Shown piece by piece: positions 9,334 to 14,091 of a stretch of DNA of 64,000 nt (its first letter is position 1; each line of letters starts with the position of its first letter). A program made the translations under genes and the position numbers. Source of the stretch: Krasilnikoviella flava (GTDB lineage: Bacteria > Actinomycetota > Actinomycetes > Actinomycetales > Cellulomonadaceae); assembly GCF_900167525.1 (NCBI RefSeq), contig NZ_FUZQ01000001.1:620001-684000 (forward strand), read 5' to 3'. The notes under the pieces were generated by a model. That model made no database searches, was not told the origin of the DNA, and saw nothing but the letters and a program-made list of their open reading frames with translations.

Positions 9334-10137
9334 TCAGACGGCGACCGGGGCCTTGATGCCCGGGTGGTGCTGGTAGCCGAGCACCTCGATGTCCTCGTAC
9401 GTGTAGTCGAGGATCGAGTCGCGCGGCGCGAGGCGCAGGGTCGGGTAGGGGTACGGGTCGCGCTCCAGCTGGGTGCGCACCTGCGCGGTGTGGTTGTCGT
9501 AGACGTGGCAGTCGCCGCCGGTCCAGACGAAGTCGCCCACCTCGAGCCCGGTCTGCGCGGCGACCATGTGGGTGAGCAGCGCGTACGAGGCGATGTTGAA
9601 CGGCACGCCCAGGAACAGGTCGGCGGAGCGCTGGTACAGCTGGCAGCTGAGCTTCCCGTCGGCCACGTAGAACTGGAAGAGCAGGTGACAGGGCGGCAGC
9701 GCCATGTCGGCCAGCTCGGCCACGTTCCAGGCGCTGACGATGAGGCGGCGCGAGTCCGGGTTGACCTTGATCTGGTCGATCACGCCCGCGATCTGGTCCA
9801 CGTGCTGGCCGTCCGGGGTCGGCCACGATCGCCACTGGACGCCGTACACCGGCCCGAGCTCGCCCTCCGGGGAGGCCCACTCGTCCCAGATCGTCACGCC
9901 GTGCTCCTGCAGCCAGCGCACGTTGGAGTCCCCGCGCAGGAACCACAGCAGCTCGTATGCGATCGACTTGAGGTGCACCCGCTTCGTCGTGACCAGCGGG
10001 AAGCCCTGCTGCAGGTCGTACCGCAGCTGGCGGCCGAACACGCTGCGCGTGCCCGTCCCGGTGCGGTCCTCCTTGTGCGTGCCGTGCTCCAGCACGTCGC
10101 GCAGGAGGTCCTCGTAGGGGGTGGGGATCGCGGCCAT
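9334..10137 (-). CDS. thyA: Thymidylate synthase
   Basis: Converts dUMP and methylene-tetrahydrofolate to dTMP and dihydrofolate, which the neighbouring FolA recycles. At 267 residues it has the normal length. Signatures are complete: [14 protein letters not shown] for phosphate binding, the catalytic Cys in [13 protein letters not shown] (about residue 150), [20 protein letters not shown], and HVYDNH near the C-terminus. The ATG at 10137 starts seven bases after a TAGGGT element, so the message may be leaderless. thyA and folA form a short operon with an 18-base gap. Confidence 0.98.
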
Positions 10138-10143
10138 GCGGCC

Positions 10144-10149
10144 ACCCTA
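10144..10149 (-). promoter_or_regulatory. Candidate -10 element for a leaderless thyA mRNA
   Basis: TAGGGT on the minus strand is separated from the thyA ATG by six bases. That places the expected transcription start on or next to the start codon. No ribosome binding site is seen. Confidence 0.5.
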
Positions 10150-10224
10150 CGACCCTGCCGACGCCCGCGACGCGAGACGCGACGCGGTCGCCGCGCCGAC
10201 GTCTCCGACGTCACACCCGGCGGC

Positions 10225-10251
10225 TGTCACGGAGCGGCACGCCGCGTGGTC
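10225..10251 (+). promoter_or_regulatory. ECF41-type promoter upstream of the FAD oxidoreductase
   Basis: TGTCACG at 10225-10231, a 16-base spacer, then GGTC at 10248-10251, followed by GA. The ECF41 consensus described for other bacteria is TGTCACA, 16 bases, CGTC. An element with the same hexamers and spacing lies before the NAD(P)-binding gene at 13418-13444. The predicted start leaves about a 35-base leader. Confidence 0.65.
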
Positions 10252-10294
10252 GACGTGGTGAGAGCGCTCGACGGGCGCGGCACAGGAGGCAATG

Positions 10295-11659
10295 ATGCGA
10301 CGCATCGTGATCGTCGGTGGTGGCTACGCGGGCTTCACGGCGGCCCGTGAGCTGGAGAAGCGCCTGCGACGGGAGCTGCGGCGGGGCGAGGTCGAGCTGG
10401 TCATGGTCGACCCGCGCCCGTACATGACCTACCAGCCGTTCCTGCCGGAGGTGCTGGCGGGGTCGGTCGAGGCCCGGCACGCGGCGGTGTCGCACCGTCG
10501 TCACCTGCGCCGCACGCGCCTGGTGGACGGGTCCGTGACGCGGGTCGACCACGCGGACCGTGCGGTCGTCGTGCGGCCCCGGTCGGGCGCCCCGTATCGC
10601 CTGCGCTACGACGTCGTGGTGGTCACCGCGGGCGCGGTGACGCGCGTCTTCCCGGTACCCGGCGTCGCGGAGCACGCCATCGGGATGAAGCACGTCGAGG
10701 AGGCGGTGGCCATCCGCGACCGGCTGCTGACGTCGTTCGACCGGGCGGCGAGCCTGCCGCGCGGTCCGGAGCGGGAGCGGCTGCTCACGGTGACGTTCGT
10801 CGGCGGCGGGTTCTCCGGCGTCGAGGGTTTCGCCGAGCTGTTGTCGCTCGCGCACGACCTGCTCCCCCGCTACCCGGAGATCGACGCCGCCGAGCTGCGG
10901 TTCCACCTCGTCGAGGTCGGCGACCGCATCCTGCCGGAGGTGACGGAGCGCCCCGGCCGCTGGGTGGTGCGGCAGCTGGAGCGGCGCGGCGCGCACGTGC
11001 ACCTCGGCACCGCGCTCACGTCCGCCGCGGGCGGCGTCGTGACCCTCTCGAGCGGCGAGTCGTTCGCGTCGGGCCTGCTCGTGTGGACCGCGGGCAACGC
11101 CGCGAACCCCGTGGTCGCGACGCACACCGACCTGCCGGTCGACACCCGCGGGTACGTCGTCGTGCGCCCCGACCTGCGGGTGGGCACCGACGACACGCCG
11201 GTGGACGACGCGTGGGCCGCCGGCGACGGCGCCGCCGTGCCCGACCTCGCGGTGCCGCGGCCCGGCGCCCTCGCCGTGCCGAACGCGCAGCACGCCGTCC
11301 GGCAGGGGCGACGCCTGGCGCGCAACCTCGCCGCGAGCCTCCGCGGCCGCCGGACCCGCCCGTACGTGCACGGCAGCCTCGGCGTGGTCGCGACCCTCGG
11401 TCTCGGTTCCGGGATCTTCCAGTTCCACCGGCTCGTGGTCCGGGGCCGGCTCGCGTGGCTGATGCACCGCGGGTACCACGTGCTCGCCATCCCGACCTGG
11501 GAGCGCAAGGCGCGCGTCCTCGCGGTGTGGCTGACCGCTGCCGGGTTCGGGCGCGACGTCGTCTCCCTGGCCTCGGTGCAGACGCCGCGCGCCGCGTTCG
11601 CCGAGGCGACCGCGCCCGGCGACGCCAGGACGGAGGAGGCTCAGGACGCCGCGGCGTAG
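10295..11659 (+). CDS. NAD(P)/FAD-dependent oxidoreductase, type II NADH dehydrogenase-like
   Basis: A 454-residue flavoprotein. The FAD-binding GGGYAG motif is at the N-terminus (IVIVGGGYAGFTAA), the second dinucleotide site is VTFVGGGFSGVEGFAEL near residue 170, and the late FAD motif is DDAWAAGDGAAVPD near residue 305. The order fits NDH-2 or related pyridine nucleotide-disulfide reductases. There is no CxxC pair. The start is set at the second of two adjacent ATGs, which puts AGGAGG five bases upstream; the first is at 10292. An ECF41-like promoter precedes it, and the ECF41 sigma gene lies convergently downstream, overlapping by 19 bases. Membrane quinone reduction is possible but unproven. 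Confidence 0.85.
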   Translation: MRRIVIVGGGYAGFTAARELEKRLRRELRRGEVELVMVDPRPYMTYQPFLPEVLAGSVEARHAAVSHRRHLRRTRLVDGSVTRVDHADRAVVVRPRSGAPYRLRYDVVVVTAGAVTRVFPVPGVAEHAIGMKHVEEAVAIRDRLLTSFDRAASLPRGPERERLLTVTFVGGGFSGVEGFAELLSLAHDLLPRYPEIDAAELRFHLVEVGDRILPEVTERPGRWVVRQLERRGAHVHLGTALTSAAGGVVTLSSGESFASGLLVWTAGNAANPVVATHTDLPVDTRGYVVVRPDLRVGTDDTPVDDAWAAGDGAAVPDLAVPRPGALAVPNAQHAVRQGRRLARNLAASLRGRRTRPYVHGSLGVVATLGLGSGIFQFHRLVVRGRLAWLMHRGYHVLAIPTWERKARVLAVWLTAAGFGRDVVSLASVQTPRAAFAEATAPGDARTEEAQDAAA

Positions 11660-12558
11660 CGCGCCAGCTTGTCCGGGTTGACCTGGACGAACACGTGCTC
11701 GACCCGCCCGGCGGCGATGTCGAGCGCCACGAGCGCGAACGGGGCGCCGTCGACGTCCACGACGATCGCGGGCAGCCCGTTCGCCTCCACCACCCGCACG
11801 GCGCCGGCGTTCCAGTACTTGCGCCACACGTTGTCGAGGAAGAGCGCCACCCGCGCCAGGCCGACGAGCTCGACGCGCGACGCGTGCACCCGCCCGCCGC
11901 CGTCCGGCCGCGCGACGACGTCGTCGGCCAGGTAGCGCTCGAAGCGGGCGAGGTCGCCCTCGTGGGCGGCGGCCACGAGCTCGTCGAGCAGACGCCCGTG
12001 CTCGCCCGGGTCGACGGGCACGGCCTCACGCGTGCCGAGCCGGTCGCGGGCCCGCCGCGCGAGCTGCCGGGCGTGCGCCTCGGTGAGGTCGAGGATGTCC
12101 GCGATCCGGCGGTAGGGGTAGCCGAACGCCTCCCGCAACACGTAGACCGCGCGCTCCAGAGGGCTGAGCCGCTCCATGAGCAGCAGCGTCGCCAGCTCGA
12201 GGGCCTCCGCCCGCTCCGCGCCGAGCGCCGGGTCGCCGGAGGTGTCGACCGGCTCGGGGAGCCACGGCCCCACATAGGTCTCGCGCCGGGCGCGGGCCGA
12301 CGTCGCCGCGGTGATCGCCAGGCGCGTCGTCACGGTGGTGGGGAACGCCGCCGGGTTCCGCACAACGGCGCGGTCGGTGCCCTGCCACCGGATCCAGGCG
12401 TCCTGCACCACGTCCTCCGCCTCCGCCACGCCGCCGAGCATGCGGTAGGCGATGCCGAACAGCTGCGGCCGCACCGCGAGGAACGCGTCGAGCGCCCCGG
12501 CGTCCTCGGTCTCGTCGAGGACGTGGGGGCGCTCCGGCGCGGGCTGGGGCGTCGTCAT
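11641..12558 (-). CDS. ECF41-family RNA polymerase sigma factor (SigJ-like)
   Basis: A 305-residue extracytoplasmic sigma factor with sigma-2 (about 25-90, containing YRMLGGVAEAEDVVQDAW), sigma-4 (about 120-180, helix-turn-helix ending LTEAHARQLARRARDRL) and a C-terminal SnoaL-like domain. The ECF41 hallmarks are all present: WLPEP in the linker, DGGGR, and NPDKL near the C-terminus. In ECF41 proteins the C-terminal domain replaces a separate anti-sigma factor and tunes activity. These genes are typically linked to a carboxymuconolactone decarboxylase, oxidoreductase or epimerase gene that they control. Here an NAD(P)-binding protein is next upstream and an FAD oxidoreductase downstream, both with matching promoters. 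Confidence 0.95.
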   Translation of the reverse strand: MTTPQPAPERPHVLDETEDAGALDAFLAVRPQLFGIAYRMLGGVAEAEDVVQDAWIRWQGTDRAVVRNPAAFPTTVTTRLAITAATSARARRETYVGPWLPEPVDTSGDPALGAERAEALELATLLLMERLSPLERAVYVLREAFGYPYRRIADILDLTEAHARQLARRARDRLGTREAVPVDPGEHGRLLDELVAAAHEGDLARFERYLADDVVARPDGGGRVHASRVELVGLARVALFLDNVWRKYWNAGAVRVVEANGLPAIVVDVDGAPFALVALDIAAGRVEHVFVQVNPDKLARYAAAS

Positions 12559-12618
12559 GCGGTCAACGTACGCGCGCCCCGCACCGCGCGGCAGGGGTCG
12601 GCCGGGTGACGCGGCCGG

Positions 12619-13365
12619 TCATGTCGTGGCGCTCCCCGCGACGAAGTCCGCGAACGTCACCGCGCCGAGCCGGGCGTCCCCCTGCGGCACGATCGAGTCC
12701 TGGGCGAGCACCGCCCCGAAGTACGGGGCGGCAGGGTCCGCCGCCACCTCGCGGGGGTCGCCGGCGATGGCGCCGCGAATGAACTCGTCGAACCGGACCC
12801 GGTCCGGGCCGGCGACGTCGTACGCGCCGTCGCGCGGCTCCCCCATGGCCGCCTCGGCCACGAACCGCGCGACGTCCGCCGAGGCGATCGGCTGGAACGC
12901 GACCGGCGGGATGCGCACCGTCCCGTCGATGGCGGCACCGTCGGCGATCCGCGGTGCGAACTCGAAGAACTGCGTGGCCCGCACCACGGTCCACGGGACG
13001 CCCCCGTCGCGCACCAGCTCCTCCTGCGCCACCTTGGCCCGCAGATACCCCGAGTCGGGGTTGCGGTCGGCCCCGACGATCGACAGGACCACGTGGTGCC
13101 GCACGCCGGCCCGCTTCTCCGCGTCGAGCAGCGTGCGCGTCGACGCGGTGAAGAAGTGCAGCACGTCGTCCGGGGCGAACGACGGCGAGTTGGACACGTC
13201 GACGACGACGTCCGCCCCGTCGAGCGCGGCATCCACCCCCTCGCCGGTCAGGGTGTCCACACCGGTGCTGGGCGCGGCCGCGGCGGCCTCGTGCCCAGCC
13301 TGCGTGAGCAGCGCGATGACCTGCGTCCCGATCAGTCCCGTCCCACCGACGACCACGATCTTCAT
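12619..13365 (-). CDS. NAD(P)-binding SDR/NmrA-like protein, probable ECF41 partner
   Basis: A 248-residue protein with an N-terminal Rossmann motif (IVVVGGTGLIGTQVIALL) and the extended NmrA/atypical SDR pattern. DVVVDVSNSP and HHVVLSIVGADRN lead to YLRAKVAQEELVRDGG, the place of the Tyr-Lys pair in this group. VVRATQFFEF follows. It likely binds NADP(H); the substrate is unknown. It fits the oxidoreductase/epimerase partner gene that accompanies ECF41 sigma factors, and the sigma gene follows by 60 bases on the same strand. The ATG at 13365 opens the Rossmann fold directly; no strong ribosome site is seen. Its promoter is described at 13418-13444. Confidence 0.88.
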   Translation of the reverse strand: MKIVVVGGTGLIGTQVIALLTQAGHEAAAAAPSTGVDTLTGEGVDAALDGADVVVDVSNSPSFAPDDVLHFFTASTRTLLDAEKRAGVRHHVVLSIVGADRNPDSGYLRAKVAQEELVRDGGVPWTVVRATQFFEFAPRIADGAAIDGTVRIPPVAFQPIASADVARFVAEAAMGEPRDGAYDVAGPDRVRFDEFIRGAIAGDPREVAADPAAPYFGAVLAQDSIVPQGDARLGAVTFADFVAGSATT

Positions 13366-13417
13366 GAGCCTGTCCTCTCTGCGGCGCGCGGCCCCGGCGG
13401 CCGCCCGACACCCTCTC

Positions 13418-13444
13418 GACCATGGCCACGCGCGTTCCGTGACA
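13418..13444 (-). promoter_or_regulatory. ECF41-type promoter upstream of the NAD(P)-binding gene
   Basis: On the minus strand, TGTCACG (13444-13438), a 16-base spacer, then GGTC (13421-13418) followed by GA. Hexamers and spacing are identical to the element at 10225-10251, and the two spacers share only the two bases after TGTCACG (GA). The start codon is 53 bases downstream. The sigma gene may be co-transcribed from here. Confidence 0.65.
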
Positions 13445-13569
13445 GGGCACGGGTGTGACGCCCGCCACCGTGCGCCGCCCGGCGCAGGTCGTGGAATCGA
13501 GCAGCCCGCTCGCACGTTCTCCCCGGAACGTCCCGGACTCCCCGGGCCGAGCAGTGGGAGGATCGCCTC

Positions 13570-14091
13570 ATGACGGAGCAGAGCACCACGACCGAGACCG
13601 CCGCCGGCCGCGAGACCGACACCGCGGCCCCCGTGACGCCGTCGCCCACCGACCCGCTGTGGGTGGAGCGCACCGGGACCCGGACGTACCGCGGGCACTC
13701 CGCCCGCGGCGCGAGCGTGGAGGTCGGCCCTGTCGAGGCCGGCGCCGTGTTCACGCCGGGCGAGCTGCTCAAGATCGCGCTCGCGGCGTGCGCGGGCATG
13801 AGCAGCGACACGAAGTTCGCCCGCGTGCTCGGCGACGCCTACGAGGCCGTGATCCGCGTCGAGGACGCGAAGGACATGGACGAGGACCGCTACCCGGTGC
13901 TCACCGAGCGGTTCGAGATCGACCTGTCCGGTCTCGACGACGCGACGCGGAACAAGACCCTGCTCCTCGCGCAGCGCTCCATCGACCGCGCCTGCACGGT
14001 GGGCCGCACGCTCAAGGCCGGCGCCCTGGTGCCGCCGGCGGTGTTCGAGCAGCCGGCGGACGCCGACGGCGCGGAGGACGCCGCGTCGTGA
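13570..14091 (+). CDS. OsmC family protein
   Basis: A 173-residue protein of the OsmC/Ohr fold, thiol-dependent peroxidases that reduce organic hydroperoxides. The two expected cysteines are in LAACAGMSSDTK (about residue 77) and DRACTVGRTLKAG (about residue 145), and the long central helix begins FTPGELLKIALAAC. The N-terminal 35 residues are Thr/Ala-rich and not part of the fold. The ATG at 13570 has GGGAGG eight bases upstream. The next gene starts within its stop codon (GTGA), so the two are coupled. A DUF-type OsmC without peroxidase activity cannot be excluded. Confidence 0.85.
   Translation: MTEQSTTTETAAGRETDTAAPVTPSPTDPLWVERTGTRTYRGHSARGASVEVGPVEAGAVFTPGELLKIALAACAGMSSDTKFARVLGDAYEAVIRVEDAKDMDEDRYPVLTERFEIDLSGLDDATRNKTLLLAQRSIDRACTVGRTLKAGALVPPAVFEQPADADGAEDAAS

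Follow-up and report, generated by a model that had tools for sequence, protein, structure and literature searches.

ECF41 sigma factors form a widespread group. Those of Bacillus licheniformis and Rhodobacter sphaeroides are reported to control one target gene or operon each (Wecke et al. 2012, PMC3426412). In that study the neighbouring gene was concluded to be the sole target, and neither an inducing condition nor a phenotype was found. The 64,000-nucleotide (nt) stretch of Krasilnikoviella flava DNA analysed here (contig NZ_FUZQ01000001.1, positions 620,001 to 684,000; hereafter the window) contains an ECF41 sigma factor gene located between the gene of a flavin adenine dinucleotide (FAD)-dependent oxidoreductase and that of an NmrA-type, NAD(P)-binding protein, and a promoter-like site of the ECF41 type lies before each of the two enzyme genes.

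ECF41 promoters with TGTCACA and CGTC or TGTT were mapped by 5' RACE (rapid amplification of cDNA ends) in two species, TGTT being the -10 box in B. licheniformis (PMC3426412). The commonest two-gene layout is an enzyme gene followed by the sigma gene (107 cases, 97 of them with a promoter before the gene of the carboxymuconolactone decarboxylase, oxidoreductase or epimerase, COE), and Pyr_redox_2/FAD oxidoreductases are among the recognised classes of COE partners (PMC3426412). The same paper names WLPEP as an ECF41 motif, and another names YVGPWLPEP and NPDKL (PMC7730460). Control of a single target is not universal, as lateral flagella of Azospirillum were reported to be regulated by an ECF41-type sigma factor (PMC12826043).

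The window locus resembles the systems of Wecke et al. (PMC3426412) in the fused C-terminal extension and WLPEP linker of the sigma factor, the neighbouring COE gene, the TGTCAC -35 box, the 16-nt spacer and the enzyme-then-sigma order. In contrast to these systems, which have a single target and a -10 box of CGTC or TGTT, it comprises two transcription units with the -10 box GGTC, and its enzymes are of the NDH-2 and NmrA types. Sinorhizobium meliloti RpoE9, another ECF41 sigma factor, is similar in that its gene is likely cotranscribed with the target, but differs in having one target only, a carboxymuconolactone decarboxylase with a CxxC motif (PMC6180224). What is unusual at the window locus is that an oxidoreductase gene and an epimerase-type gene have a promoter each. 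A two-target ECF41 module was not encountered in the titles and abstract openings of the literature searched, the coverage of which was partial, so an earlier precedent is possible.

Based on sequence comparisons, we suggest that the locus probably forms an autoregulated ECF41 module made up of two transcription units (a probability of about 0.82).

The two sites and the genes they precede

The predicted promoter of the FAD oxidoreductase gene (10225-10253, plus strand) reads TGTCACG-gagcggcacgccgcgt-GGTCGA, with the -35 box TGTCACG at 10225-10231, a 16-nt spacer (N16) and the -10 box GGTC at 10248-10251, followed by GA. Its counterpart before the putative NmrA-sigma operon (13444-13416, minus strand) reads TGTCACG-gaacgcgcgtggccat-GGTCGA, with TGTCACG at 13444-13438, N16 and GGTC at 13421-13418, again followed by GA. 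The distance from GGTC to the start codon is 40 nt for the FAD gene (first ATG) and 52 nt for the NmrA-type gene. By hand count the two spacers are identical at only 6 of 16 positions, so that what the sites have in common is the boxes and their spacing. The original prediction, in which both sites were given with equal spacing and almost unrelated spacers, is exact.

The -35 box and the 16-nt spacer at both genes fit the ECF41 pattern, position 7 being A or G among relatives. GGTC is not the CGTC of ECF41 promoters, which is a consensus and not a definition; similarly, the presence of two transcription units with the promoter motif departs from a reported, but not a defining, ECF41 property, the single target.

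The FAD oxidoreductase (10292-11659, plus strand, 455 amino acids (aa) from the ATG at 10292, with a start at 10295 also possible) contains a Pyr_redox_2 domain (PF07992, E 1.1e-37), and its best match in the PDB is labelled NADH:ubiquinone reductase (non-electrogenic) (E 1.1e-34). Judging by this domain and by its similarity to a solved NDH-2, the enzyme is NDH-2-like. The view that a FAD enzyme is not the usual partner of an ECF41 sigma factor could not be upheld, as Pyr_redox_2/FAD oxidoreductases had already been recognised as such partners (PMC3426412).

The sigma factor gene (11641-12558, minus strand, 305 aa) is the second gene of the putative operon, and its assignment to ECF41 is based on Pfam, the alignment with SigJ and the motifs. 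Sigma-70 regions 2 and 4 (PF04542 and PF08281) were found over the cut-off, and the translation contains YVGPWLPEP, DGGGR and NPDKL, in agreement with the earlier statement that WLPEP, DGGGR and NPDKL all occur in it; DGGGR, too, is counted among the ECF41 motifs. SigJ of Mycobacterium tuberculosis (5xe7) is the closest solved structure by sequence, although distant (143 bits); the alignment (E 1.3e-40, residues 24-298) covers sigma2, sigma4 and the C-terminal extension, which in ECF41 sigma factors comprises about 100 aa of the SnoaL/NTF2-like type. Of the curated models, NF007214 (SigJ) scored 272.1 against a cut-off of 271, and TIGR02957 (SigX4) scored 310.1, below its cut-off of 323.25.

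The NmrA or NAD(P)-binding 'epimerase'-type protein (12619-13365, minus strand, 248 aa) was recognised by PF13460 (50.2 bits, cut-off 27.2) and PF05368 (29.3 bits, cut-off 27), its PDB matches being weak, with the best one labelled monooxygenase. Its gene is separated by 60 nt from the sigma gene on the same strand, and the minus-strand site should therefore drive an NmrA-sigma operon; if the site works, the loop is autoregulatory. The genes around the sigma gene encode thymidylate synthase, the NDH-2-type enzyme, the NmrA-type protein and an OsmC-like protein. A COE gene is thus adjacent to it, and Pfam analysis of the neighbours revealed no obvious anti-sigma gene adjoining it. A simple scan of 9900-13700 found neither a sigma-70-type promoter nor an intrinsic terminator.

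We infer the following sequence of events, in which the window sigma factor would read both sites. As described for ECF41 sigma factors, it would presumably be restrained by the SnoaL/NTF2-like domain fused at its C-terminus until a signal relieves that domain. Transcription by RNA polymerase loaded with it would then begin at TGTCACG-N16-GGTC, both before the NmrA-sigma operon and before the FAD gene; the former start would provide positive feedback together with the NAD(P)-binding enzyme, and the latter would express the convergent NDH-2-type oxidoreductase. Both enzymes may share a role in NAD(P)H/quinone redox handling.

At their 3' ends the convergent FAD and sigma genes share 19 nt (11641-11659), and an overlap of 16-19 nt was observed in six of the eight syntenic loci described below. 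Converging transcription might therefore limit sigma expression.

Occurrence of the motif in the genome and at orthologous loci

Within the window, the loose form of the pattern has 2 matches, which is weak evidence, as 29 of 100 shuffled sequences also gave at least 2. Genome-wide, TGTCACR-N15-17-SGTC was found 21 times, compared with 4 matches of the reversed pattern, and the strict form TGTCACR-N16-GGTCR occurs 4 times in the 4.85-Mb genome, compared with 0 for its reverse. Since the strict form also has 1-3 matches in each of seven same-genus genomes that lack a close sigma orthologue, about half of these 4 matches would be expected from background. The two strict sites outside the window are located between opposite-strand genes (C5:300815) and inside a gene in antisense orientation (C7:216824); only the two window sites are in promoter position. 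The extended form GTCACR-N16-GGTCR-N4-GGTG has exactly 2 matches in the genome, both of them the window sites, and 0 in reverse, a result in line with the genome-wide check proposed along with the original prediction.

When the first base was relaxed (GTCACR-N16-GGTCR), 42 matches were obtained, 40 of them besides the window pair: 30 inside genes, 3 upstream of a gene and 7 at other intergenic positions. Among the three upstream sites, two are GTCACA-N16-GGTCA sequences that overlap, 23 bp apart (G000:C8:455455-455504); this arrangement looks like a direct repeat of another regulator.

A search for the sigma factor in 58 genomes, including that of the window, gave matches in 46. The gene order thymidylate synthase, FAD oxidoreductase, sigma factor, NmrA-type protein, OsmC is common to seven relatives; in L044 and L046 it is interrupted by extra genes. 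Together with the window these make eight syntenic loci, and in all eight TGTCACR-N16-GGTC precedes the NmrA-type gene and NGTCACR-N16-GGTC the FAD gene, with the first base being T in four, C in three and A in one. The spacers of both promoters have diverged across these loci, while both elements are kept. In G047, which represents another family, a FAD relative lies beside a sigma gene and has the site CGTCACG-N16-GGTC.

Survey of related FAD oxidoreductase loci

For a wider survey of named genomes, one scan was made with an alignment of 12 FAD proteins, and the best 80 of 590 loci were taken. Group A consists of 45 loci (722,733 bases) with FAD proteins of 65-91% identity, from Isoptericola, Cellulosimicrobium, Streptomyces, Amycolatopsis, Actinoplanes, Kribbella, Leifsonia and other genera; it includes near relatives (e.g. 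L102, L103, L104 and L106), and its rows are not independent. Group B consists of 35 loci (545,219 bases) of 55-58% identity, mostly from Microbacteriaceae. Genes were predicted by a simple caller, for which seven window genes served as the training set, and some starts may therefore be misplaced; a site was considered to be inside a gene when it lay more than 20 nt within it.

Within 150 nt upstream of the FAD gene, NGTCACR-N16-NGTC was found in 36 of 44 group A genes (29 in the strict form; L106, with too little upstream sequence, was omitted) and in none of the 35 group B genes, compared with 0-3 (group A) and 0-1 (group B) for other spacings. The motif TGTCACR-N16-[GCT]GTC has 120 sites in group A, none of them inside a called gene: 94 are in sense orientation no more than 200 nt ahead of a gene start, and 26 are at other intergenic positions. 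At every other spacer length from 10 to 22 there are only 1-17 sites, the 17 at length 11 fitting a 'ctgtcc' that recurs in the spacer. Group B contains 1 site with the 16-nt spacer, and the reversed motif occurs once in group A.

These counts bear on the possibility that the sites are chance matches in GC-rich DNA, for which the frequency of the loose pattern in shuffled sequences and the strict matches in same-genus genomes might speak. Conservation in eight of eight loci, the absence from all 35 control genes and the excess at a single spacer length led us to reject such an origin, which we regard as having a negligible probability. The bipartite element is conserved, rare in the genome, divergent in its spacers and linked to this FAD subfamily across actinobacteria.

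Another explanation is that the element is bound by an ordinary DNA-binding regulator through GTCAC half-sites and is not a sigma factor promoter. Direct reading of the window showed a second GTCAC 16 bp ahead of the one in each -35 box, at 10210-10214 (plus strand) for the FAD promoter and at 13455-13459 (minus strand) for the NmrA promoter, and several close FAD promoters also have the upstream GTCAC element nearby, some relatives having a GTGAC element upstream of theirs. However, it is missing from several orthologues at the NmrA side and is not kept across group A, where the -35 box, N16 and NGTC are general, and we therefore rejected it as a general part of the promoter. Moreover, the N16 sites lie on the sense strand, with their ends 8-104 nt from the FAD start, and match an ECF41 promoter mapped by 5' RACE (PMC3426412), and their -10 base shifts with the sigma phylogeny (see below). 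An ordinary regulator is therefore quite improbable, and we retain the reading as ECF41-type promoters.

An NmrA-type relative is present in 22 of the 45 group A loci and has a promoter in 18 of these 22; all 18 also have the FAD promoter, and 15 of them a sigma gene. Fifteen of the 45 group A loci thus combine a sigma gene with promoters on both enzyme genes, which is a misfit with the published single-target picture. When T or C was allowed as the first base, two or more promoter-positioned genes were found in 28 of the 45. The promoter-positioned genes (122) fell into clusters, the largest of which are FAD (35), NmrA (17), sigma-containing (15) and an FAD_binding_2 flavoprotein of about 566 aa (8); smaller clusters of 2-4 genes comprise WhiB, methyltransferase, alpha/beta hydrolase, OsmC, cupin and cytochrome b proteins. 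The clusters were named by Pfam analysis of one member each, apart from the sigma-containing one, from which two members were submitted and two members are short.

The eight syntenic loci, the genome-wide test and these 15 named loci support the proposal that one ECF41 sigma factor would drive two separately promoted enzyme genes. The two-enzyme layout, with promoters assigned by prediction, occurs in many actinobacteria, and the proposal holds up beyond this genome. Promoters conserved on several genes would define co-regulated enzymes, from which the signal (possibly the NADH/quinone redox state) can be guessed, and might serve as clean reporters in the search for the signal of ECF41 sigma factors.

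The first -10 base and the sigma factor phylogeny

A quick tree of 46 ECF41-type sigma factors was constructed, each labelled with the majority first -10 base of the sites within 4 kb. Smaller copies of larger loci (L009-L018 and six more), the duplicates L072 and L073, multi-sigma loci, sigma factors shorter than 231 or longer than 419 aa and those lacking a site within 4 kb were omitted; some rows lack one or more of the three motif strings, and the C2 paralogue described below has none. On the side of the window sigma factor (a branch of 30 with a Shimodaira-Hasegawa-like approximate likelihood ratio (SH-aLRT) of 100) the first base is G in 27, T in 3 and C in 0, compared with C in 11, T in 4 and G in 1 of the 16 on the other side. 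The label changes 7 times on the tree, compared with a mean of 16.3 after shuffling, and a value as low was obtained in 0 of 200 shuffles. Thus GGTC, which the original prediction took for a deviation, is what this side of the tree usually has as its -10 box (27 of 30).

Recognition of the -10 bases is a function of sigma region 2. Residue 86 of the sigma factor is mostly T (15) or Q (11) on the window side and R in 15 of 16 on the other side; the SigJ residue aligned with T86 of the window sigma factor is also R. As many other positions separate the two sides as well, T86 is only a candidate.

At least two more ECF41-like sigma genes, with identities of 43% and 35%, are present in the genome. 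The two window sites could be true ECF41-type promoters read mainly by such a paralogue (C5:247604 or C2:86521), or shared among them. In favour of this, the FAD promoter is found in 13 group A loci whose analysed stretch contains no sigma gene; if the sites work in these loci, they must be read in trans. On the other hand, the sites of the paralogues differ, being CGTCACG-N16-CGTC before the C5 gene and GGTCACA-N16-TGTC beside the C2 gene (L054:5467-5493 and L055:6396 onward), the first -10 base follows the sigma phylogeny, and the eight syntenic loci have GGTC at both promoters with the same sigma orthologue between both genes. Reading by a paralogue is accordingly rather unlikely, and GGTC may distinguish the window promoters from the CGTC and TGTC sites next to the paralogues.

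Several observations weigh against the proposed module, in which the window sigma factor would serve both promoters. For SnoaL_2, Pfam gave no match to the sigma factor at E 0.001. Eight of the 44 group A FAD genes lack an N16 site (two of them, in L082 and L099, have N17), and the first -10 base of the group A FAD promoters is mixed (23 G, 7 T and 6 C). N16 sites also occur where a sigma gene is absent, with 45 in 23 group A loci of this kind and 75 in the 22 that have one, and the 13 loci with a FAD promoter mentioned above lack an NmrA-type gene as well as a sigma gene in the stretch analysed. Three loci (L045, L047 and L048, sigma identity 68-69%) have a promoter-bearing NmrA-type gene and no FAD gene in the 12 kb analysed. 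Furthermore, the group A counts overlap with those of the eight syntenic loci, as L072 and L073 belong to both sets, and the tree has long end branches and labels based on proximity.

Eleven of the 13 genomes just mentioned carry a sigma factor of at least 50% identity elsewhere, the best in the other two being 46% (that of L076) and 41-42% (that of L094). Of the eight genomes lacking an N16 site, five were searched, with a sigma factor of at least 50% in four and of 47% in one. Seven of the 35 group B genomes were also searched; among the matches listed, two had none and the best of the other five was E 2e-49 or weaker.

In a broader view, for and against which the odds seem evenly balanced, actinobacterial ECF41 sigma factors on one side of the tree would control multi-unit redox regulons (the NDH-2-type FAD enzyme, the NmrA-type enzyme, the FAD_binding_2 flavoprotein, sigma genes and others) and not a single target. 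Paralogous sigma factors in one cell would be kept apart by the first -10 base (GGTC, CGTC or TGTC), which a position in sigma2, for instance residue 86 (T or Q versus R), would recognise. The link between sigma phylogeny and this base would provide a simple testable rule for insulation between paralogous sigma factors.

A second cluster was observed in two relatives (L059-L062; G010:C13 and G004:C22), with several ECF41-type sites around a sigma gene of 253-255 aa, which lacks much of the C-terminal extension and lies between the genes of two large LuxR-type AAA regulators. The site-bearing genes encode an NmrA-type protein, alpha/beta hydrolases, an FAD_binding_2 flavoprotein, a second NDH-2-type enzyme and a symporter, the sodium:solute symporter gene with a site being found in L062.

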